Shown in pieces: positions 1,589-24,207 of a stretch of DNA of 28,440 bases. This DNA is from a virus: IMG/VR virus record IMGVR_UViG_3300043449_000274, positions 1 through 28,440 of that record; one strand, written 5' to 3'. Both the position numbers and the translations under genes were made by a program. Position 1 is the stretch's first letter; every line of letters starts with the position of its first letter. The notes beneath the pieces are model-generated. The model had not been told where the DNA came from. It saw only the letters and a program-made list of their open reading frames with translations, and ran no database searches.

Positions 1589-2176
1589 ATGAAAAGCTGT
1601 AATCAAACAAAGCAACAATTTTATCTTAATCAATCATTAAAAGATGGCACTTGCTTATTTTGCGAATGTTCTTGGGTAAGCGTAAAACATTTGTTTTTAA
1701 ATTACCACTATCTAAAATCTATGCCAGCAGGTATAATGTCAGTATATGGTTTATTTGATGAATCAAATCTTTCACAGGCAGTAGGTGCAGCAGTTTTTTG
1801 TAATGGCAGAATACAATACGATAAAAGGTTTATAGAATTTAGCAGGATGTGGGTATCTGATGCTTATGGGAAAAATACAGAAAGTTGGTTTATATCTAAA
1901 TGCATGAAGGCTTTAAATTATAAATACCCTACATACGAAGGTGTTGTAACTTGGGCAGATATGGGTAGAGGTCATAATGGTGTTATTTACTTAGCTTCAA
2001 ATTTTGTATACGATGGGGAAAGTAGAAAAGTTAAAAAGTACACAGGTAAAAATAAAAAGATAATATATCAGCGTACAGCAACTTCAGATGACATTTGTAT
2101 AGGTGAAGACCTGCCAAAAAAAAGATTTATATACTACTTTGATAAAAAGAAACGTGAAAAAATGAAATTGATATGA
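1589..2176 (+). CDS. Mom-like DNA modification protein (putative adenine hypermodification, GNAT-like fold)
   Basis: This 195-aa protein shows the conserved layout of the phage Mu Mom family, which converts adenine in phage DNA to a carbamoyl-methyl derivative and so protects it from restriction. The visible signature in order is HY at 40-41, YGLF at 53-56, a core strand ending in EFSRMWVSD (83-91), KNTES (95-99), a helix, VTWADMGRGHNG (120-131) and IYLASNFVYDG (133-143). The R..V.D...KN.ES block and the AD...GH.G.IY.A.NF.Y.G block are the family hallmarks. It begins one base after a small membrane-protein gene, and its stop overlaps the start of a zinc-knuckle protein. DNA is AT-rich compared with the structural genes, which suggests separate acquisition. 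Family assignment is confident; the exact modified base is not. Confidence 0.8.
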   Translation: MKSCNQTKQQFYLNQSLKDGTCLFCECSWVSVKHLFLNYHYLKSMPAGIMSVYGLFDESNLSQAVGAAVFCNGRIQYDKRFIEFSRMWVSDAYGKNTESWFISKCMKALNYKYPTYEGVVTWADMGRGHNGVIYLASNFVYDGESRKVKKYTGKNKKIIYQRTATSDDICIGEDLPKKRFIYYFDKKKREKMKLI

Positions 2177-2649
2177 AAACCTGCAAAACCTGTAAGCAAC
2201 AGAAACAATTAAAGGAGTACAATAAAAACAAGCTGCAAAAAGACGGGCATGATTACATTTGCAAAGATTGCAGAAACGAGAAAAAAAGAAGTTACAACTT
2301 GGTAGGTGGTAAAAAAGTATGTAGTAAATGCCGGAAGACAAAAGAACTAACGGACTACTGCAAAAAGGCTTATAGCAAAACGGGGTATAATAGCCAATGC
2401 AAAGAATGCGCTAAATTATATCAAAAATCAAAACGACCTGAAAAGCCTGAAGTAATCCACCCAGAAGGAGAAAAAGAATGCACGGGGTGTAAGCAGTCTT
2501 TACCTTACCCGTCTTTCCATCGCAATAAAGCAAGTAAGGATATGTACATGAGCAAATGTAAAGTTTGTGAAAGTGATATGGCAAAGGCGAGGAAAGCAAA
2601 ACAAGATATTAATTATGCGGCTTTTTATTATCCAGTAGCGTTAGATTAG
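2173..2649 (+). CDS. Triple zinc-knuckle protein (three CxxC-x22-CxxC repeats), coupled to Mom-like gene
   Basis: The 158-aa protein has three internal repeats, each CxxC, a basic helix-like middle with K.L..Y.K and a KDG/KTG/KDM turn, then C-K-x-C. The cysteines are at 4/7 and 30/33, 50/53 and 76/79, and 103/106 and 129/132, so each pair is separated by exactly 22 residues. Each repeat should bind one zinc. The repeat unit resembles the N-terminal zinc-binding part seen with phage HNH/endonuclease VII-like proteins, but no HNH or other catalytic motif follows; residues 133-158 are a short basic tail. Its ATG overlaps the mom-like stop, so the two are coupled. In Mu, the zinc protein Com controls mom translation; a comparable regulatory or partner role here is inference. 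It could also be a nucleic-acid-binding protein unrelated to Mom. Confidence 0.75.
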   Translation: MKTCKTCKQQKQLKEYNKNKLQKDGHDYICKDCRNEKKRSYNLVGGKKVCSKCRKTKELTDYCKKAYSKTGYNSQCKECAKLYQKSKRPEKPEVIHPEGEKECTGCKQSLPYPSFHRNKASKDMYMSKCKVCESDMAKARKAKQDINYAAFYYPVALD

Positions 2650-2650
2650 T

Positions 2651-2718
2651 ATCATATCGTTGAGTTCAACGAAATGGTCAACTATTCGGAAATTCCGAAC
2701 AATTCAAAAACAAATAAC
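2651..2718 (+). promoter_or_regulatory. Structured intergenic repeat, copy 1 (double hairpin plus A-rich leader)
   Basis: Hairpin 1 spans 2651-2678: five outer pairs (one T-G), an A/A mismatch, then TCGTTG pairing with CAACGA around the loop AGTT. Hairpin 2 is the palindrome TTCGGAAATTCCGAA at 2685-2699. A leader with AAAAACAAATAAC follows and abuts the ATG at 2719. Copies 2 and 3 lie at 3715 and 4006. No T-run follows either hairpin, so they are not terminators. Confidence 0.8.
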
Positions 2719-3132
2719 ATGACACAAGAATTTATTCCATACGAACAAGCATTAGAACTTAAAGAGCTGGGATTTGATGAAGAGTGCTTAGGATGGTACC
2801 CTAAAGATACTGCAGCCTTATCATTACATGGTGTCTTTATTGGCAAACCATCTTCTGGTAGTTATAAACTACTTGCTTATGCACCATTATACCAACAAGC
2901 ATTTAGATGGTTTAGGGAGAAGTATAATATTCAAAGTTGTATTAAGTTTACTCATGCAGAATACTCTTTTGAAATTCATTTTGAAAAACTTGCAAATGGT
3001 GAACCCAACCCTATAATGGTTGGGCATTTTGTAGATAGTTGGTTAGGATTAAATTTACCTTTGTTTAAAACCTACGAAGAGGGGGAAGTTGCTTGTTTGA
3101 AGAAACTCATTGAAATAATTAAAAACAAATAA
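2719..3132 (+). CDS. Conserved hypothetical phage protein (137 aa)
   Basis: I place the start at ATG 2719, directly after AAAAACAAATAAC, and not at the in-frame ATG 2674, because 2674-2718 is part of an intergenic repeat that recurs before other genes. The protein starts MTQEFIPYEQALELKELGFDE and carries FEKLANGEP and a C-terminal Lys-rich end (LKKLIEIIKNK). The opening pattern (YEQALELKELGFDE) is common in small Bacteroidota phage proteins. It looks soluble, with no membrane segment or catalytic motif. The next gene starts two bases after the stop and reuses the same 13-nt leader. Function unknown. Confidence 0.75.
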   Translation: MTQEFIPYEQALELKELGFDEECLGWYPKDTAALSLHGVFIGKPSSGSYKLLAYAPLYQQAFRWFREKYNIQSCIKFTHAEYSFEIHFEKLANGEPNPIMVGHFVDSWLGLNLPLFKTYEEGEVACLKKLIEIIKNK

Positions 3133-3133
3133 C
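3121..3133 (+). promoter_or_regulatory. Recurrent translation leader AAAAACAAATAAC
   Basis: This 13-mer lies directly against the ATG at 3134 and overlaps the end of the preceding coding region. The identical 13-mer abuts the starts at 2719, 3783, 7619 and 7803. It probably acts as an A-rich, SD-independent translation initiation region. Confidence 0.6.
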
Positions 3134-3712
3134 ATGGCACACAAAATAATTAAAACAGACAACTATTTATTTGTATTAGAGCATTCAAGAATTAAAAGAG
3201 GTGATACTGTTAAATATGATAATGGATATTTTACCGCAACACATGATAACTATCATGATTCATTAATGAAAATTATCGCCCACCTCCCACTAAACGGTTC
3301 ACCTATCCTTGAAGGTGTAGACTTACTACCACCATATTCCCGACATCAGGAAGATGGTCTTGATGAATTTGAATTATTTTTAAATAGGGAGGTAGAATTT
3401 AATCTTTGTCCAAAAGATATTATAGAAAGAATTAAATGGTACTATCAAACATATTTTAAACCCAAAGAAAAGTACAAATACACAGAGGAGGATATGAGGA
3501 AGGCTATTGATATGGCAACTACTTCCAAACATGATTCTACTCTTATCCTTTTTAATGCGGAAGAGATTATCCAATACCTCCACCAATACCCAACAGAGTT
3601 TGAGTGTGAGATGGAAATTATTGGTGTTACTGATGATGGAATAAGCACTATTGAAGAAATCAAAACAATTACAACTGCCAAAGGAGTACAATGGGTAGGT
3701 AAATACAAATGA
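3134..3712 (+). CDS. Conserved hypothetical Bacteroidota phage protein (192 aa)
   Basis: Starts at ATG 3134 behind the recurrent leader. The N-terminal part (residues 1-65) has KIIKTDNYLFVL, then KRGDTVKYDNG and KIIAHLPLNGSPILEGVDLLPP, a pattern that recurs in many unassigned proteins of Bacteroidota phages and mobile elements. The middle has KYKYTEEDMRKAIDMA, and the C-terminus (about 155-188) resembles a small beta unit ending in GVQWVGKYK. I see no catalytic motif or membrane segment. It forms a pair with 2719-3132, enclosed by copies 1 and 2 of the structured repeat. Function unknown. Confidence 0.75.
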   Translation: MAHKIIKTDNYLFVLEHSRIKRGDTVKYDNGYFTATHDNYHDSLMKIIAHLPLNGSPILEGVDLLPPYSRHQEDGLDEFELFLNREVEFNLCPKDIIERIKWYYQTYFKPKEKYKYTEEDMRKAIDMATTSKHDSTLILFNAEEIIQYLHQYPTEFECEMEIIGVTDDGISTIEEIKTITTAKGVQWVGKYK

Positions 3713-3714
3713 AT

Positions 3715-3782
3715 ACCATTTCGTTGAGTTCAACGATATGGTCAACAAATTCGGAAATTCCGAATAATTAAAAACAAATAAC
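3715..3782 (+). promoter_or_regulatory. Structured intergenic repeat, copy 2
   Basis: Hairpin 1 spans 3715-3742: ACCAT pairs with ATGGT, a T/T mismatch follows, then TTCGTTG-type pairing around the loop AGTT. Hairpin 2 is TTCGGAAATTCCGAA at 3750-3764, extended by one A-T pair. The leader AAAAACAAATAAC (3770-3782) abuts the ATG at 3783. The element starts two bases after the previous stop codon. Confidence 0.8.
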
Positions 3783-4004
3783 ATGGCACAGACAACAATG
3801 CAGGAAATGATAGAATGGGCAACATCGTTAAAAAATAAACAGCAACAATGTATTGATTGGGTTGCTATAAAAAGCAAAGCAGAAGAATTATTGGTATTGG
3901 AGAAGGAGCAGATGATTGATTTTGCTAAACAATGGGAAGCAAGAAAAAACGATGGTAATTTAGATAGTATAGAAATGCTTTACAATGAAATATATAATAA
4001 ATAA
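3783..4004 (+). CDS. Small acidic-helical phage protein, paralogue family member (73 aa)
   Basis: The 73-aa product begins MAQTTMQEMIEWATSLKNK and carries the core AEELLVLEKEQMIDFAKQW, ending LYNEIYNK. The same architecture (short helical N-terminus, K-x-x-E-K-E-Q/N helix, then a terminal Y-N-E-x-Y-N/K) is seen in the products of 7369-7607 and 7803-8015, and in part at 4075-4314. These appear to be diverged paralogues. It sits alone between copies 2 and 3 of the structured repeat, forming a neat one-gene cassette. No enzymatic signature; function unknown. Confidence 0.7.
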   Translation: MAQTTMQEMIEWATSLKNKQQQCIDWVAIKSKAEELLVLEKEQMIDFAKQWEARKNDGNLDSIEMLYNEIYNK

Positions 4005-4005
4005 A

Positions 4006-4074
4006 ACCATATCGAGGACTTGCTCGAAATGGTAAACTATTCGGGAATTCCGAACAATTCAAAAATAGATAACA
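4006..4074 (+). promoter_or_regulatory. Structured intergenic repeat, copy 3 (covarying hairpin)
   Basis: Hairpin 1 spans 4006-4033: ACCAT pairs with ATGGT, an A/A mismatch follows, then TCGAG pairs with CTCGA around the loop GACTTG. Both arms of the inner stem differ from copies 1 and 2, but pairing is kept. Hairpin 2 is TTCGGGAATTCCGAA at 4040-4054, with one G-T wobble. The leader is a variant (AAAAATAGATAACA) before the ATG at 4075. Confidence 0.8.
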
Positions 4075-4314
4075 ATGGAACAAGAAACCGCAGTAGATTA
4101 CATTTTTAGAAAACTTGACGTTTTGTGTAGGCTTACCCCACAAACAAGAGTAACAGGAACAAGCGAGGAATGGCAAAACCTATTTGAACAAGCCAAAGAA
4201 ATTGAGAAGGAGCAGTCACATAATTATGCTGATTTTTGCGTAAGATGTGATAGAGACCAAATGAAACTACTTGACTTTAATGATTATATGAAAATTTACA
4301 CCAATGGACTTTGA
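4075..4314 (+). CDS. Small hypothetical phage protein, distant paralogue of 3783-4004 (79 aa)
   Basis: ATG at 4075 follows the third structured repeat. The 79-aa protein begins MEQETAVDYIFRKLDVL and has a central helix EQAKEIEKEQSHNYADFC, matching the A-K-x-x-E-K-E-Q core of the neighbouring small proteins; the C-terminus differs (DYMKIYTNGL). Its last codons are read from GGACTTTGA, which overlaps the ATGGACTTTGA that begins a 27-bp repeat. The original C-terminus may have been altered by the rearrangement that made that repeat. No motif or function recognised. Confidence 0.65.
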   Translation: MEQETAVDYIFRKLDVLCRLTPQTRVTGTSEEWQNLFEQAKEIEKEQSHNYADFCVRCDRDQMKLLDFNDYMKIYTNGL

Positions 4315-4330
4315 AACCATCGCAACCGAT
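4304..4330 (+). repeat. 27-bp direct repeat, left copy
   Basis: This 27-bp segment matches 5267-5293 at 25 of 27 positions. It encodes MDFETIATD and overlaps the stop of the preceding gene in exactly the way the right copy does. It looks like a leftover 5' end of the gene now at 5267. Confidence 0.7.
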
Positions 4331-4636: not shown

Positions 4637-5277
4637 ATTACGGTGAACTTCCAAAATCATTAGGATTACATCAAATTGATGTAAATGAAATGATGTTTTA
4701 CCAATACTTACCTATAAAATTTCCTGAAAAAACAGATATTATATATGAAGAAAGATTAAGGTGTTTTGATAAAATTATAGGAATTATTTGTTGTGATTAT
4801 ATTGGAGAATATGGGTTAGATAGGTACGTTAATAGTTATGTTTATTTGACTGCTAAAAATATGTACCAAAACAATAATTGTTTATATAATAGACCAAATT
4901 GGCATAGTGATGGATTTTTAACAGATGACATTAATTATATATGGTCTAATAAATTACCAACAACATTTAATGGTAGTACATTTAATTTATGTCATGATGA
5001 TTCACAATCATTGATACAAATGGAAGCACAAGCCTTGCCAATTAATGATAAATTTTATTCAGAAAATGAGTTATTGAGATTAAATCAATATTGTATTCAT
5101 AAAGTATCTGATATAAAAGAAGGATGCATAAGAGCATTTTTAAAAATATCATTTAGTTTAGATAAATATGATTTAGTAGGTAATTCACATAACTACTTAT
5201 TAGACTATAACTGGCAAATGAGAAATAGAGAAATATCAAGAAATATGCCACAAAACAAATCTATATATGGACTTTGA
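4633..5277 (+). CDS. Candidate Fe(II)/2-oxoglutarate-dependent dioxygenase-like protein (214 aa)
   Basis: No family is certain, but the residue layout fits a double-stranded beta-helix dioxygenase. It has HSD at 91-93 (iron ligands H-x-D), a distal His at 156 and Arg at 167, eleven residues later, where the 2-oxoglutarate-binding Arg is usually found. The surroundings are RPNWHSDGFLTDDINYIW (87-104), then LPTTF, and RAFLKISFSLDKY (167-179) followed by GNSHNYLLDYNWQM. Aromatic-rich strands in between agree with the fold. Such phage enzymes may modify nucleobases, proteins or metabolites; the substrate here is unknown. The gene is strongly AT-rich and lies in a two-gene insert between 27-bp repeats. 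It could instead be a non-enzymatic protein whose HxD...H...R spacing is coincidental. Confidence 0.55.
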   Translation: MNYGELPKSLGLHQIDVNEMMFYQYLPIKFPEKTDIIYEERLRCFDKIIGIICCDYIGEYGLDRYVNSYVYLTAKNMYQNNNCLYNRPNWHSDGFLTDDINYIWSNKLPTTFNGSTFNLCHDDSQSLIQMEAQALPINDKFYSENELLRLNQYCIHKVSDIKEGCIRAFLKISFSLDKYDLVGNSHNYLLDYNWQMRNREISRNMPQNKSIYGL

Positions 5278-5293
5278 AACCATCCCCACCGAT
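5267..5293 (+). repeat. 27-bp direct repeat, right copy
   Basis: It matches 4304-4330 at 25 of 27 positions. It carries the authentic start of the 71-aa gene beginning here (MDFETIPTD) and overlaps the stop of the upstream gene through the shared GGACTTTGA. Confidence 0.7.
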
Positions 5294-7368: not shown

Positions 7369-7607
7369 ATGAAACAGACAGTAGTAAATTTTTTGTACAC
7401 CGAATTTTTGAAGTATTGGTATGGCAATTCAGAATACAATCTTCAAATGAAATAATCGAAAAAGCAAAACAAATTGAGAAAGAGAATATATCAAAAGCAT
7501 GGGATGCAGGTAAGCATCAATATTTTTCTTTAGGAATACCTGAAATAGAATTTAATGATGGCAAAGAGTATTATGATATAAATTACAACGAAACATATAA
7601 CAATTAA
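7369..7607 (+). pseudogene. Frameshifted small paralogue (gene of the 3783/7803 family)
   Basis: ATG 7369 follows the leader ACAATAAC and reads MKQTVVNFLYTEFLKYW, then stops at 7453-7455 after 28 codons. The -1 frame is open across this region to the TAA at 7605-7607 and encodes IIEKAKQIEKENISKAWDA and, at the end, EYYDINYNETYNN. These are the core and C-terminus expected for the paralogue family seen at 3783 and 7803. An unbroken family member would join the two frames, so either a single-base indel has broken the gene, or a -1 shift occurs (T TTT TTG at 7392-7398 or a later site). A TTG at 7416 could start the second part alone but would drop the family N-terminus. Confidence 0.55.
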
Positions 7608-7618
7608 AAACAAATAAC
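7606..7618 (+). promoter_or_regulatory. Recurrent translation leader AAAAACAAATAAC
   Basis: Identical 13-mer directly before the ATG at 7619; it overlaps the stop of the preceding frame. Other copies abut 2719, 3134, 3783 and 7803. Confidence 0.6.
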
Positions 7619-7801
7619 ATGACACAAGAAAAATTAGAAGAAATTATGGATTACAAAAAACCAGTTGGCTGGTATTGTCTGGGTACTAAAGAAAAAAGCA
7701 AAACAGCTGCATTTGCGACATATAAAAAGCCTAATGCTATAAAGAGATTTTTTATGAGAACACTTTTGGACTTTTATTGGATTAAAGATAAAAACAAATA
7801 A
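7619..7801 (+). CDS. Small conserved phage protein (60 aa)
   Basis: The 60-aa protein begins MTQEKLEEIMDYKKPVGWYCLG and continues with EKSKTAAFATYKKPNAIKRFFM and a terminal W-x-K-D-K. The K-P-x-G-W-Y-C-L-G, K-S-K-T-A-A-F-x-x-Y-K-K-P and final aromatic/basic segments are familiar from tiny unassigned phage proteins. It is basic and has no membrane span; the aromatic-rich C-terminal helix may be amphipathic. The stop overlaps the leader of the next gene. Function unknown. Confidence 0.7.
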   Translation: MTQEKLEEIMDYKKPVGWYCLGTKEKSKTAAFATYKKPNAIKRFFMRTLLDFYWIKDKNK

Positions 7802-7802
7802 C
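7790..7802 (+). promoter_or_regulatory. Recurrent translation leader AAAAACAAATAAC
   Basis: Fifth identical 13-mer, directly against the ATG at 7803, and partly coding for the end (DKNK) of the preceding protein. Confidence 0.6.
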
Positions 7803-10605: not shown

Positions 10606-11054
10606 TGGCTAAGTTTCATAATAACAGGAAAAAAGACGGGAGGAGTAAGATGTTCACCCCTGAAGAATTGCAAGAACTGTTTGAAGAATACAAAGAACAC
10701 GTCAAAAACAACCCTTTTTTAATCCATGAGTTTGTTGGAAAAGATGGAACAAGCGTAATGAGAGCAAAGGAAAGACCACTAACAAAAGACGGGTTTGAAT
10801 TATTTGTAAGGCAAAAAGGTAAGGCGAAAGGGTTAGACCAGTATATTTATAATCAAAATGGTGCGTATAATGATTTTTTGGGATTTCTTAAAGATTTCGA
10901 TTTGGAAATAAGAGACAACCAACTAAGCGGAGCAATGGCAGGAATCTTTAACCCAACGATAACTGCAAGGATTAACAACCTAACCGAAAGCACAAAGCAG
11001 GAGCATGACGGGAAAATAGAAGTAGTATTTGTTGACAATAAGACGATACTTTGA
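10605..11054 (+). CDS. Putative terminase small subunit (149 aa)
   Basis: The gene abuts the large subunit (stop TGA overlaps the TTG start at 11051), as small subunits usually do. The protein begins with a basic N-terminus (NNRKKDGRSKMFTPEELQELFEEYKEH), a helical DNA-binding-like domain that includes a K-R-P-L-T-x-x-G-F-E-x-F segment, and the C-terminal block GIFNPTITARINNLTEST, which matches the oligomerisation end seen in terminase small subunits of the terS type in Bacteroidota phages. It would recognise the packaging site (cos or pac) and regulate the motor. Length is normal. Assignment rests on pattern and context, and is good but not certain. Confidence 0.75.
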   Translation: MAKFHNNRKKDGRSKMFTPEELQELFEEYKEHVKNNPFLIHEFVGKDGTSVMRAKERPLTKDGFELFVRQKGKAKGLDQYIYNQNGAYNDFLGFLKDFDLEIRDNQLSGAMAGIFNPTITARINNLTESTKQEHDGKIEVVFVDNKTIL

Positions 11055-12202
11055 GGTTAGAACTACCAAACCCACATATTAACCAAATACCTATACTGAC
11101 ATCAAAAAGGAGGTTTAGAGTGGTTATGTGTGGTCGCAGATTTGGCAAGAGCGAACTATCACAGATAGAAATCATAACCGAATCACTAAAAGGGCATCAG
11201 GTCGCATACATTACGCCTACTTATAACCTCGCAAAGACTTTCTTCGATAAGTTAGCAAAGGCTGTACCCTTCCCGGCAAATAGGTCGGAATTAACCATCA
11301 GCCTACCGACAAAGGGCAGCATCCAATTTTTCACAGGTGAGCGGCTTGATAACCTACGGGGTAGGAAATTCCATTTAGTTGTAGTGGATGAGGCTTCGTT
11401 TATACCGAATCTTGAAGACGGCTGGTTAAATTCGATAAGACCAACATTAACGGACTATATCGGTCGTGCTTTGTTTCTATCCACGCCAAAGGGTAAGAAC
11501 TACTTTTATAGCCTATTCATGAAAGGCGGTGAGCAAGACTGGGAAGCGTTCAGGTTTACCACATACGACAACCCACACATAAACAAAACGGAAATAGACG
11601 ATGCAAGAACACAGCTTCCCGAAGCAGTATTTGAACAGGAATACATGGCTAACCCGATGGAGAACGCGGCTAATCCTTTCGGTAGTGCTTTTATTCAGCA
11701 ATGCACCTACCCGATTAGTACGTCAGCCCCGGCAGTCTACGGAATAGACCTTGCTAAATCTACGGACTGGACTGTTATTATAGGGATGGACAGAATGGGA
11801 GCGGTTTGTTACTTTGACCGATTCCAAAACGATTGGCGTACAACAAAGCAGAAAATAAAGTTACTACCCAAAGCACCGATGTTGATAGATAGCACGGGCG
11901 TAGGTGACCCGATAACAGAAGAATTGCAGCACGATGGAATGGAGGTAACAGGGTTTAAGTTCAGCCAAACAAGCAAACAGCAACTAATGGAAGGTCTGCA
12001 AGCGGCTATTCACCAGCGGAAAATAACCTTTCCTTCAGGTATAATAACGCAGGAGTTGGAAATATTTGAATACCAATACCACAGCGGAGGCGTTAGGTAT
12101 TCTGCACCATCGGGCTTTCATGATGACTGCGTGGCTGCGCTTGCTTTAGCCTGCCAACATATAAAAATGTTTAGTAACAAAGGAAAATATTCATTCGCAT
12201 GA
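11051..12202 (+). CDS. terL: Terminase large subunit (packaging ATPase/nuclease), 383 aa
   Basis: The packaging motor that translocates DNA into the prohead and cuts it. The start is TTG 11051, overlapping the small-subunit stop. Walker A is CGRRFGKS (27-34), Walker B with catalytic Glu is LVVVDEAS (109-116), and the coupling motif is STPKG (144-148). The RNase H-like nuclease domain follows: Asp233 in YGIDLAKSTDW, Asp280 in LIDSTGVGDP, and Asp358/359 in GFHDDCVAALALAC supply the metal-binding triad. At 383 aa it is short for TerL but complete in both domains. It anchors the structural module and is translated directly with the next gene (overlap 12199-12202). Confidence 0.95.
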   Translation: MRLELPNPHINQIPILTSKRRFRVVMCGRRFGKSELSQIEIITESLKGHQVAYITPTYNLAKTFFDKLAKAVPFPANRSELTISLPTKGSIQFFTGERLDNLRGRKFHLVVVDEASFIPNLEDGWLNSIRPTLTDYIGRALFLSTPKGKNYFYSLFMKGGEQDWEAFRFTTYDNPHINKTEIDDARTQLPEAVFEQEYMANPMENAANPFGSAFIQQCTYPISTSAPAVYGIDLAKSTDWTVIIGMDRMGAVCYFDRFQNDWRTTKQKIKLLPKAPMLIDSTGVGDPITEELQHDGMEVTGFKFSQTSKQQLMEGLQAAIHQRKITFPSGIITQELEIFEYQYHSGGVRYSAPSGFHDDCVAALALACQHIKMFSNKGKYSFA

Positions 12203-21833: not shown

Positions 21834-22214
21834 ATGATAACGATTAAGAAAGGCAATACCGAAACAATAGTATTAACGCTGACGGAAAAACAAACGTTAG
21901 TTAATCCAAACTATTTGTTTGTATTCAAAAGCAGGATGCCCGAACAGGTTGTTAGCTTTGTGCTATTAAATGCAGCGGATACGAGTGCTTATAAGTATAG
22001 GTACAACCAATTCAGTCTTGTAGTAAATAATTATTTCAGCAATAGCCCACAGGGTGAATGGCGGTATTATATTTACGAACAAGCAAGCGCAACAAATAAA
22101 GATGAAACAAAGACGGGTGGACTATTGGAAGAAGGGATAATGAGGTTAAATGAAGCAGAGGCGTTCGGTTATGTTAGCTATCAAACAGAAACGGAATTTA
22201 TTACGCATGGATAA
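21834..22214 (+). CDS. Conserved phage structural-type hypothetical protein (126 aa)
   Basis: Starts MITIKKGNTETIVLTLTEKQTL, followed by YLFVFKSRMPEQVVSFVLLN, a polar stretch with RYNQFSLVV, then GEWRYYIYEQASATN and EEGIMRLNEAEAFGYVSY. It is a beta-rich sandwich of the type that begins many Bacteroidota phage proteins (I-x-x-G-x-T-x-T-x-V-L-T-L-T-E) and recalls the BppU-like fold of the gene at 25332. Its role, a head or tail accessory protein, is inferred from place alone. The stop overlaps the portal start by eight bases. Confidence 0.65.
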   Translation: MITIKKGNTETIVLTLTEKQTLVNPNYLFVFKSRMPEQVVSFVLLNAADTSAYKYRYNQFSLVVNNYFSNSPQGEWRYYIYEQASATNKDETKTGGLLEEGIMRLNEAEAFGYVSYQTETEFITHG

Positions 22215-24207
22215 TTTATTTATATTAAAATTTGCGGAGGCGAGGCAGCCTGAGTACCGAGAGAAAAAAGGTACTTATGGCGGTTATATGGAGTTCGGTT
22301 ACCATAACGATTACCCTAAATACCTGCTTGACCTTTACAATAAATCAGCAAAGCACAACGCAATAGTAAAAGGTAAGGTTAACTATATAATAGGCAATGG
22401 CTGGAAGTCAAACGAACCCGATGCAGTTGCTGAAGCATTCATAAAAAAGCCTAACCAATACGAAAGTTTAGCAGACTTAACCCGTAAAGTTAGCACAGAC
22501 ATTGAGGTTTTCGGTGGTGCGTATTTGGAGATTGTATGGAGTGCAGCAGGTGGGCAGCTTTATTCTGTTGGTCATATTGATTATACCAAAATCAGAACAA
22601 ATAAGGATAACACCCAGTTTTGGTTCAAAAACGATTGGCAGGATAGGAAAGAGGAACCTGTTGTTATCAATGCTTTCAATAGCCAATTAAGGCAGGGCAG
22701 ACAGATTCTTTACATGAAAGAATACAGACCCGGATTAGAAACTTATAGCCTGCCGGGTTACATGGGTGCGTTAAATTACATCGAATCAGACATAGAAGTA
22801 TCAAAGCACGTTTTGGGTAATGCTCAAACAGGGTTCAGTGCATCAAAGATGGTAACGCTTCCGAATGGCGAACCTACGCCTGATGAAAAGCGTAATATTG
22901 AAAGAAGATTTACTGATAGGTTTACGGGAAGTGATGGTAAGAAGCTGATACTTTCTTTTGTTGATAGGATAGACCAAAAGCCAATAGTTGACGATTTAGG
23001 GCAAAGCGATTTGAGCAAAGAAGACTTTGCCAATGTTGATACTTTAATTCAGACAAATATTTTTGCAGGTCATCAGATTGTAAGCCCAATGTTATTTGGT
23101 ATCAAAACTGAAGGACAGCTGGGGGCTACAACAGAATTGCAGTCAGCTTATGAGATTTTTAAAAACACATATGCCAACGATAAGCAGCACTTTATCGAAT
23201 CGGTTTTCAATGAGTTAGCAACCATAAAAGGTGCGACTTCTGAAATTGTTATTATTCCTGTTGAGCCAATCAGCTTCCAATTAACGGAAGCAGCTTTATT
23301 GCAGATTGCACCAAAGGAATATTTACTTGAAAAAGCAGGAATTGATTTGAGTAAATATGCACCTGTTGACAGCAATACAGGCGAATTGGCGGCATCACCT
23401 GCAAATGTGAACGAATCCTTGAAGAATCTAACAGGGCGGCAATATCAGCAGCTTATGAGGGTTGTACGCCAATTCAGTCAAGGTAAGATAACAAAGCAGC
23501 AGGCAAGCGTTATGCTTTCGGGTGGGTTAGGGTTAAGTGAGGCTGAAATTAACACTATGCTTGGCGTGGATGATGACCCTGCAACCGAAGACCAATTTAG
23601 TGAGCATGAAGATGAAGCGGTAAAGGTTTTTGAGGAATACGGAGAACAAAGAGAGTTTTTTAATGTGTTTCGTGACAAACCAGTGTATAGCAGTTTTGAA
23701 GCGTTTGTGATAGATAATAGCATTGACGGGGCAAGTGATAAAAAGATATTGGAACTGATAAAGAAAGACCCTTTAATTGCTGCTGCGGTACTTGCAAAGG
23801 CTATTGGGAAAGAAATTGAGTTTGTTTACGATAGGTTGCAGCACTTGCAGGACATTGGTGCGATTGTAAAGGATGAAGTAACTCAAGCGAGAACGCTGAC
23901 AAGACCCATTAACGAAATTATAGACGAGCCTTTGCGGACTACTATTGAGGTGCGTTATTCTTATGAATGGAAGAAGGTCGTACCACAAGGGCAGCGCAAT
24001 TCAGCTACGCATCCATCACGCCCGTTTTGTGCAAGGCTTATGCAGTTGGACAGGTTATATACAAGGCGAGAAATAGAGGCAATAAGTTCAAGACTGGGAT
24101 ATTCTGTTTTTGACCGAGGCGGTGGATGGTGGACAAGACCAAGCGGATACCATAGCCCATCATGTAGGCACGAATGGAGAGCCAACGTTGTAGTAAAGAA
24201 AAAATAA
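22207..24207 (+). CDS. Portal protein with winged-helix-like insert and Mu gpF-like C-terminus (666 aa)
   Basis: ATG 22207 is chosen over 22150; upstream codons overlap the previous gene and lack family pattern. The portal part covers about 1-420: YMEFGYHNDYPKYLLDLYNK, AKHNAIVKGKVNYIIGNGW, LADLTRKVSTDIEVFGGAYLEIVW, GSDGKKLILSFVDR and IFAGHQIVSPMLFGIKTEGQLG. Residues about 510-560 look like a winged helix (KKILELIKKDPLIAAAVLAK and VYDRLQHLQDIGAIV). The last 85 residues (VPQGQRNSATHPSRPFCARL, FDRGGGWWTRPSGYHSPSCRHEW) match the C-terminal part of Mu gpF-like minor head proteins. The portal would form the dodecameric DNA channel; the fused end acts inside the prohead. Unusually, it lies downstream of the capsid gene. 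Confidence 0.8.
   Translation: MDNLFILKFAEARQPEYREKKGTYGGYMEFGYHNDYPKYLLDLYNKSAKHNAIVKGKVNYIIGNGWKSNEPDAVAEAFIKKPNQYESLADLTRKVSTDIEVFGGAYLEIVWSAAGGQLYSVGHIDYTKIRTNKDNTQFWFKNDWQDRKEEPVVINAFNSQLRQGRQILYMKEYRPGLETYSLPGYMGALNYIESDIEVSKHVLGNAQTGFSASKMVTLPNGEPTPDEKRNIERRFTDRFTGSDGKKLILSFVDRIDQKPIVDDLGQSDLSKEDFANVDTLIQTNIFAGHQIVSPMLFGIKTEGQLGATTELQSAYEIFKNTYANDKQHFIESVFNELATIKGATSEIVIIPVEPISFQLTEAALLQIAPKEYLLEKAGIDLSKYAPVDSNTGELAASPANVNESLKNLTGRQYQQLMRVVRQFSQGKITKQQASVMLSGGLGLSEAEINTMLGVDDDPATEDQFSEHEDEAVKVFEEYGEQREFFNVFRDKPVYSSFEAFVIDNSIDGASDKKILELIKKDPLIAAAVLAKAIGKEIEFVYDRLQHLQDIGAIVKDEVTQARTLTRPINEIIDEPLRTTIEVRYSYEWKKVVPQGQRNSATHPSRPFCARLMQLDRLYTRREIEAISSRLGYSVFDRGGGWWTRPSGYHSPSCRHEWRANVVVKKK

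Follow-up and report, generated by a model that had tools for sequence, protein, structure and literature searches.

Three gene junctions of a tailed phage carry copies of one structured element, and the question raised by this locus is what the element is and why its pairing is kept. The window analyzed here, 28,440 bases long, is the entire IMG/VR record of the phage. A sequence-only reading had placed the copies at 2651-2718, 3715-3782 and 4006-4074, each arranged as gene stop, hairpin 1, hairpin 2, A-rich leader and ATG (at 2719, 3783 and 4075), and this plan was confirmed. The reported change in the inner arms of hairpin 1, from T-A, T-A in copies 1 and 2 to A-T, G-C in copy 3, proved correct on checking the sequence, as did the like-like mismatch (A/A, T/T and A/A). 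The outer ACCAT/ATGGT stem, described as kept in every copy, holds generally, but copy 1 has ATCAT/ATGGT with one G-T pair. The pairing of hairpin 2 extends further, to a 25-nt palindrome with A-C mismatches among its outer pairs on the plus strand. The type-1 and type-2 sites abut exactly in copies 1 and 3, and one additional base separates the hairpins in copy 2.

The features of the locus are given below. Scores are those against two models, R1, built from 52 distinct bacterial dinD palindromes, and R2, built from 42 bacterial rhuM palindromes, with no window sequence included in either.

2173-2649, plus strand: gene for an endonuclease VII/HNH-like zinc-ribbon protein, upstream of copy 1 (PHROGs endonuclease VII, E 4e-23)
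2650-2679, plus strand: type-1 (dinD-type) palindrome of copy 1, TATCATATCGTTGAGTTCAACGAAATGGTC, arm type C9+GTT (R1 25.1 bits, E 3.5e-4 on the minus strand; 24.2 bits, E 5.6e-4 on the plus strand)
2680-2704, plus strand: type-2 (rhuM-type) palindrome of copy 1, AACTATTCGGAAATTCCGAACAATT, arm TCGG (R2 27.8 bits, E 4.6e-5)
2719-3132, plus strand: hypothetical gene with its ATG after copy 1 (ORF list and sequence)
3134-3712, plus strand: hypothetical gene between copies 1 and 2, containing the fourth type-1 palindrome
3330-3359, plus strand: fourth type-1 palindrome, missed by the sequence-only reading, CACCATATTCCCGACATCAGGAAGATGGTC (R1 30.9 bits, E 1.3e-5)
3714-3743, plus strand: type-1 palindrome of copy 2, TACCATTTCGTTGAGTTCAACGATATGGTC, arm C9+GTT (R1 34.4 bits, E 1.7e-6)
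3745-3769, plus strand: type-2 palindrome of copy 2, ACAAATTCGGAAATTCCGAATAATT (R2 17.6 bits, E 0.04, match 3747-3769)
3783-4004, plus strand: hypothetical gene with its ATG after copy 2
4005-4034, plus strand: type-1 palindrome of copy 3, AACCATATCGAGGACTTGCTCGAAATGGTA, arm C9+GAG (R1 27.4 bits, E 9.3e-5)
4035-4059, plus strand: type-2 palindrome of copy 3, AACTATTCGGGAATTCCGAACAATT (R2 23.1 bits, E 0.001)
4075-4314, plus strand: hypothetical gene with its ATG after copy 3
11051-12202: terminase
22150-24207: portal

A-rich leaders precede genes of this phage, as is usual in Bacteroidota. One of them, AATTAAAAACAAATAAC-ATG, is repeated at 3112-3133, 3761-3782, 7597-7618 and 7781-7802, and occurs also without hairpins. 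Just 5' of the element region, positions 1589-2176 encode a Mom-like DNA-modification protein (Pfam Mom, E 9e-23), while the protein encoded at 2173-2649 consists of three repeated zinc-ribbon units, each like phage endonuclease VII/HNH families. Two different genes have in common a 27-nt start (MDFETI-TD; 4304-4330 and 5267-5293, 93% identical).

Selection on pairing had been staked on further copies in related phages, and such copies with preserved pairing were seen. Scans for the exact pattern detected one composite copy in each of six further viral contigs. When these six and the three window copies were combined into a model of the whole element (R3), the model recovered all nine with E 4e-15 or better and gave no additional strong composite copy in ten related records. 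A copy follows the EndoVII/HNH-like gene in L004, L005, L006 and L008 as in the window. Nevertheless, a tie of the element to this gene was rejected despite the five contigs with the pair, since other genes precede the element elsewhere and the gene is present without it in L130, L132 and L133.

The source of the two hairpins was indicated by the bacterial models. R1 ranks the four type-1 copies of the window first (3714-3743, 3330-3359, 4005-4034 and 2650-2679, in that order), the next match having an E value of 0.95, and the top three matches of R2 are the type-2 copies 1, 3 and 2. The type-2 site of copy 2 is the weakest, with a marginal score and a decayed outer arm. The type-1 copies of the window have the outer ACCAT/ATGGT symmetry and the covarying inner arms of the dinD palindrome family, and copy 3 carries the arm of E. 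coli K-12 dinD. Judged by sequence, hairpin 1 is almost certainly a free copy of the palindrome of dinD genes and hairpin 2 a free copy of that of rhuM genes. They are free copies in that no DinD, Bro-N or RhuM protein is encoded in the window. The fourth type-1 copy brings the arm types in this phage to three. It lies within the coding sequence at 3134-3712, which reads it as PPYSRHQEDGL, the dinD frame being HHIPDIRKMV; at its position, the homologous gene in L225 carries a stretch of about the same size that is unrelated in sequence.

Genes for DinD were collected with NF008573 from about 800 genomes. Nearly all full-length sampled genes contain a palindrome of 28-30 bp at the motif DHFxxxxKMV, with arms that vary (GTTGAC/GTCAAC, CGTGGC/CACG, GCCGAC/GTCGGC, CGAGGAT/CCTCG and TCCCAA/GGGA); in E. 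coli K-12 it is the 30-mer GACCATTTCGAGGAGATCCTCGATATGGTC at record position 3817934. In an alignment that leaves out four clearly divergent members with no recognizable palindrome, 93.5% of cells were paired and double-change cells numbered 91, compared with 23.9 in shuffles. Shifting the partner columns by 1-3 abolished the covariation. Even the Asp codon tracks its partner, GACCAT occurring with ATGGTC (Val) and GATCAT with ATGATC (Ile). Synonymous-codon shuffles of all members retained 7.7 of 12 pairs against 10.6 observed, and 18 or more changes of arm type were counted on a 53-protein DinD tree from which the palindrome was excluded.

Similar results were obtained for two further families. 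In nearly all sampled rhuM genes, collected with PF13310, a 25-nt palindrome lies between EGEL and YNLD. Here 94.4% of cells were paired, with 142 double-change cells (41.2 shuffled), 10.2 of 11 pairs observed against 7.1 in synonymous-codon shuffles (Fisher p ~1.6e-64) and 31 changes of arm type on the RhuM tree. Most sampled ORF6N genes, collected with PF10543, contain a third palindrome, in nearly all of them 18 nt after FMFxLT; 94.4% of cells were paired and 45 were double-change cells (9.7 shuffled) when the palindrome was placed by best symmetry, a choice that favors pairing. Two ORF6N genes (L576 and L577) read the core palindrome in another frame, as LVTTCDRF instead of LRSQFVTS. The use of one core in two reading frames implies that the DNA is kept and not the peptide. 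Among unrelated ORFs, a perfect palindrome with 11-bp arms was found in 17 of 768, most of these being of dinD or rhuM type. In several bacterial genomes dinD and rhuM adjoin or lie within about 2 kb (G355:C12, G003:C2 and G023:C1), and one dinD gene (G667:C219:12962-13930) has its two matched halves about 124 nt apart in one open frame.

The palindromes are also widely dispersed. A degenerate pattern of hairpin 1 matched at least 120 viral stretches, against six in the entire viral collection for a scrambled control palindrome of equal degeneracy. The free type-1 unit is 28 bp long, A[CT]CATWTYGTTG...CAACRAWATG[AG]T, with asymmetric flanks, and throughout the hairpin 1 family its W-W position often shows the like-like mismatch, A/A or T/T. 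The 24 fixed bases CCATTTTGTTGANNTCAACAAAATGG were found in at least 116 bacterial stretches from many phyla, mostly within dinD at DHFVDVNKMV, at loci spanning 26-72% G+C. Distinct viral contexts of type 1 numbered 104, and the fetched DNA of only 2 of these roughly 104 contained a dinD gene. Bro-N was encoded in none of 14 contigs examined, some of which may be incomplete. Where ORFs overlap free type-1 copies, 42 of 57 use the dinD reading frame. For type 2, rhuM-like coding matches in gut contigs point to rhuM as the source family. For the ORF6N-type pattern, 29 of 34 viral stretches lie outside recognizable ORF6N genes; in L583-L616 free ORF6N-type palindromes are intergenic in phages, many being the variant CTTGAGGTCTCAATTTGAGACCTCAAG and one lying directly before an ATG. 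Tandem dinD-type palindromes about 30 bp apart occur in L123, L186 and L225, apparently translated as repeats such as HFVDTNEMIDHIVDANKMV. A tRNA lies within 60 nt in 6 of the 104 type-1 contexts (0.84 expected), several of the six being one locus; ARAGORN did not confirm a candidate tRNA that follows the L007 copy.

Two viral contigs are informative with respect to function. L276 has one site inside dinD plus one on each side, and in L269 a type-1 site stands immediately 5' of rhuM. R2 did not recover a free type-2 site that visual inspection had suggested in L269, so the rhuM case rests on the type-1 site. These arrangements favor regulation.

For DinD, residues that track the arms were found by comparing gene pairs of similar divergence having the same or different arms. 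Outside the palindrome, the best-tracking residues lie in the EWRN tetrapeptide, 22-25 residues upstream. Arm GTT is paired with EWRNF, CGT with RWENF (in two separate lineages), GCC and CCT with KW[DE]NF or QWRRF, TCC with SWDKF, GAG with [EQ][YF]RHF and GTG with E[FY]RNF; E. coli K-12 DinD, with EYRHF and CGAG, fits this correspondence. The tracking residues of RhuM are likewise in a helix-turn-helix, Glu going with xxGG, Leu with xAAG and CGAG, Tyr with xxGA, Lys with TGCA and TTCC, and Met with TAAG. DinD arms GTT or GTG occur with helix Arg-Asn in 54 of 55 genes, and in 57 of 58 RhuM genes GG at arm nucleotides 9-10 is accompanied by Glu at the position 15 codons upstream. This near-complete agreement is a stronger point than the independent-pairs comparisons (6:0, p 0.03 for DinD and 10:0, p 0.002 for RhuM), whose p values are optimistic and a guide only because the traits were picked after inspection of the arm-tracking columns.

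Searching the PDB by sequence with DinD yielded no useful match. In an AlphaFold model of DinD (pLDDT 91), two helices, the second starting at the EWRN tetrapeptide, are followed by a β-hairpin, with the palindrome coding for its first strand. Among PDB structures, Foldseek placed this model closest to DdrC, a DNA-binding protein from Deinococcus radiodurans (E 8e-5, TM 0.37-0.48), a weak whole-chain similarity. That the arms change in step with a DNA-reading helix suggests that the palindromes are the binding sites of the proteins. They are thus regarded, on sequence grounds, as quite likely candidate sites for proteins of the DinD/RhuM class.

The covariation had been taken to indicate selection on folding, at the RNA level or as a cruciform or operator, with a leaning toward an mRNA leader in which a pair of RNA hairpins governs how the downstream message is translated or how stable it is. 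That base-pair symmetry is selected is strongly supported. All three copies do lie between stop and start codons and fold well, beating 199-200 of 200 dinucleotide shuffles (z -3.2, -5.1 and -4.6). An mRNA hairpin, however, should tolerate G-U above A-C, and over all sets about 29 G-U and 27 A-C mismatches were counted with no overall strand preference (16:8 in dinD with the outermost pair excluded, 6:10 in rhuM, 6:3 in free hairpin 1 and 1:6 in free hairpin 2). This balance contradicts the use of covariation as proof of RNA folding, and the constraint looks DNA-level. Both R1 and R2 give the window sites slightly higher scores on the minus strand, which in copies 1 and 3 is also the better-folding one (-20.8, -20.0 and -23.3 kcal/mol for copies 1, 2 and 3, compared with -15.3, -19.8 and -18.0 on the plus strand). 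Rfam gave no match for the element at the gathering threshold. With the same palindromes inside coding sequences and free copies in many other contexts, an mRNA leader is very unlikely. Among the alternatives first listed, the evidence favors a DNA site read by protein and not specifically a leader RNA, because of the coding location, the G-U/A-C balance and a minus strand that folds as well or better. The element also lacks the T run after a stem that marks an intrinsic terminator: the tract after the stem is A-rich on the plus strand, and no T run follows hairpin 1 on the minus strand. A leader peptide or stop-codon read-through, considered because all copies are open in the frame YHIVDVNEMVN, was rejected, as this openness reflects similarity to the dinD frame and the reading frame shifts between the hairpins in copy 2.

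Spread as selfish mobile palindromes is a more serious alternative, yet still improbable. Units of 28-30 bp and 25 bp would spread like Rickettsia palindromic elements, landing intergenically and in frame inside phage and bacterial genes, and protein binding would be secondary. The 104 viral contexts, the dinD-frame bias of overlapping ORFs, the presence or absence of the element after the same EndoVII-like gene and the tandem coding repeats all agree with such spread. Neutral copies would decay, however, while the arms observed here stay exactly complementary as their sequence changes, in step with a helix found in another part of the encoded protein. As to clean insertion into genes, the two homologue comparisons (L178 with L005, and the window gene with L225) show the coding segment in place of sequence of about equal length and not as an addition. 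No target-site duplication was established; a candidate around L198 was unconvincing, the flanking repeat being of low complexity (AQPAQ). A mutational origin, in which template switching at quasi-palindromes perfects the symmetry of an inverted repeat supplied by the amino-acid motif with no selection, would account for arms that often change together on the DinD and RhuM trees. It leaves unexplained the helix-to-arm correspondence, the fact that each of three gene families has its own palindrome at a fixed position, the palindrome read in two frames and the free copies, and such palindromes are rare in unrelated ORFs. This origin is scarcely credible.

The locus is probably best explained by predicted binding sites of DinD/RhuM-class proteins, kept in the proteins' own genes, of which free copies are scattered through phages. 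We infer the binding, dimer geometry, regulatory effect and protein supplier as follows. Each junction copy would comprise two adjoining palindromic DNA sites, one DinD-type and one RhuM-type, most likely bound as double-stranded DNA by helix-turn-helix dimers of DinD and RhuM (Bro-N class). The recognition helix of each protein would read the arms of the palindrome that its own gene contains. The predicted readers are [ED]YRNF DinD for copies 1 and 2 (C at base 9, GTT), YRHF DinD for copy 3, KW[DE]NF DinD for the fourth copy and RhuM with K[AST]TxSEH for hairpin 2. Because the window encodes neither protein, DinD and RhuM would be supplied by the host or a co-resident element and act in trans. 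Placed some 15-40 bp before the start codon, the paired site may let them control or mark the following genes, with possible effects that include a transcription block of the downstream gene, titration of the protein or recombination at gene junctions. Control of the downstream genes by the junction sites is put forward only tentatively. Against the overall reading, dinD or Bro-N genes accompany so few of the viral copies that these would have to be acted on in trans, one protein is unlikely to serve the three type-1 arm types of this phage, and near-perfect symmetry is unusual for operators.

A bolder proposal, which we consider rather doubtful, is that DinD, RhuM and ORF6N genes carry the helix-read site as their own address label, and that the free, multi-specificity labels of phages recruit, titrate or sense these proteins. 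This would be a recognition system between mobile elements and not ordinary autoregulation, and the arm-to-helix correspondence would be a readable protein–DNA code. DinD and RhuM are widespread and poorly understood, and the sequences alone suggest sequence-specific DNA binding. The correspondence predicts the site read by each homologue, including DinD of E. coli K-12. It also suggests how an evolutionary conflict is resolved, the same DNA coding for the first strand of the DinD β-hairpin and, apparently, for DinD's target. An anonymous intergenic phage repeat thereby becomes a place where the phage is likely to meet regulators of the host or of prophages.

A literature search, with most subscription journals outside its coverage, found no description of the palindrome, or of palindromes linked to DinD, RhuM, ORF6N or Bro-N. 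Operators are a known kind, as are coding palindromes; no report was found of three regulator families with covarying in-gene palindromes or of free phage copies. PeSL cassettes of T4-type phages are small intergenic stem-loop units between small genes, defined by an early promoter plus a stem-loop. No conserved promoter or -7 element was seen by eye across the window copies, and the palindromes described here, in contrast to PeSL, occur in bacterial genes too. REP/BIME sequences are likewise dispersed palindromes of 20-40 bp (PMC3733652), but their tag, GTAG or CGTC, is absent from every window copy. The coding palindromes of Nematomorpha mitochondria are similar in that inverted repeats overlap conserved coding sequence; as summarized in the abstract, they reach 284 bp and affect many mitochondrial genes, and that abstract names no protein partner or free copies (PMC6649704). 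Rickettsia palindromic elements and PARCELs share palindromic DNA in coding sequences and horizontal spread, PARCELs being tandem 25-residue repeats of DUF285 type with other palindromes and no mention of dinD (PMC2996958). Unlike PARCELs, the in-gene palindromes described here have a single fixed position and covarying arms. Autoregulatory or intragenic helix-turn-helix operators are alike in being palindromic double-stranded sites near gene starts whose half-site tracks the recognition helix. In contrast to such operators, the sites found here lie within the genes themselves, immediately 3' of the codons for the helix, in almost every DinD and RhuM gene sampled and in the majority of the ORF6N genes sampled; they are nearly perfect in symmetry and recur as free copies in phages with no such gene nearby.
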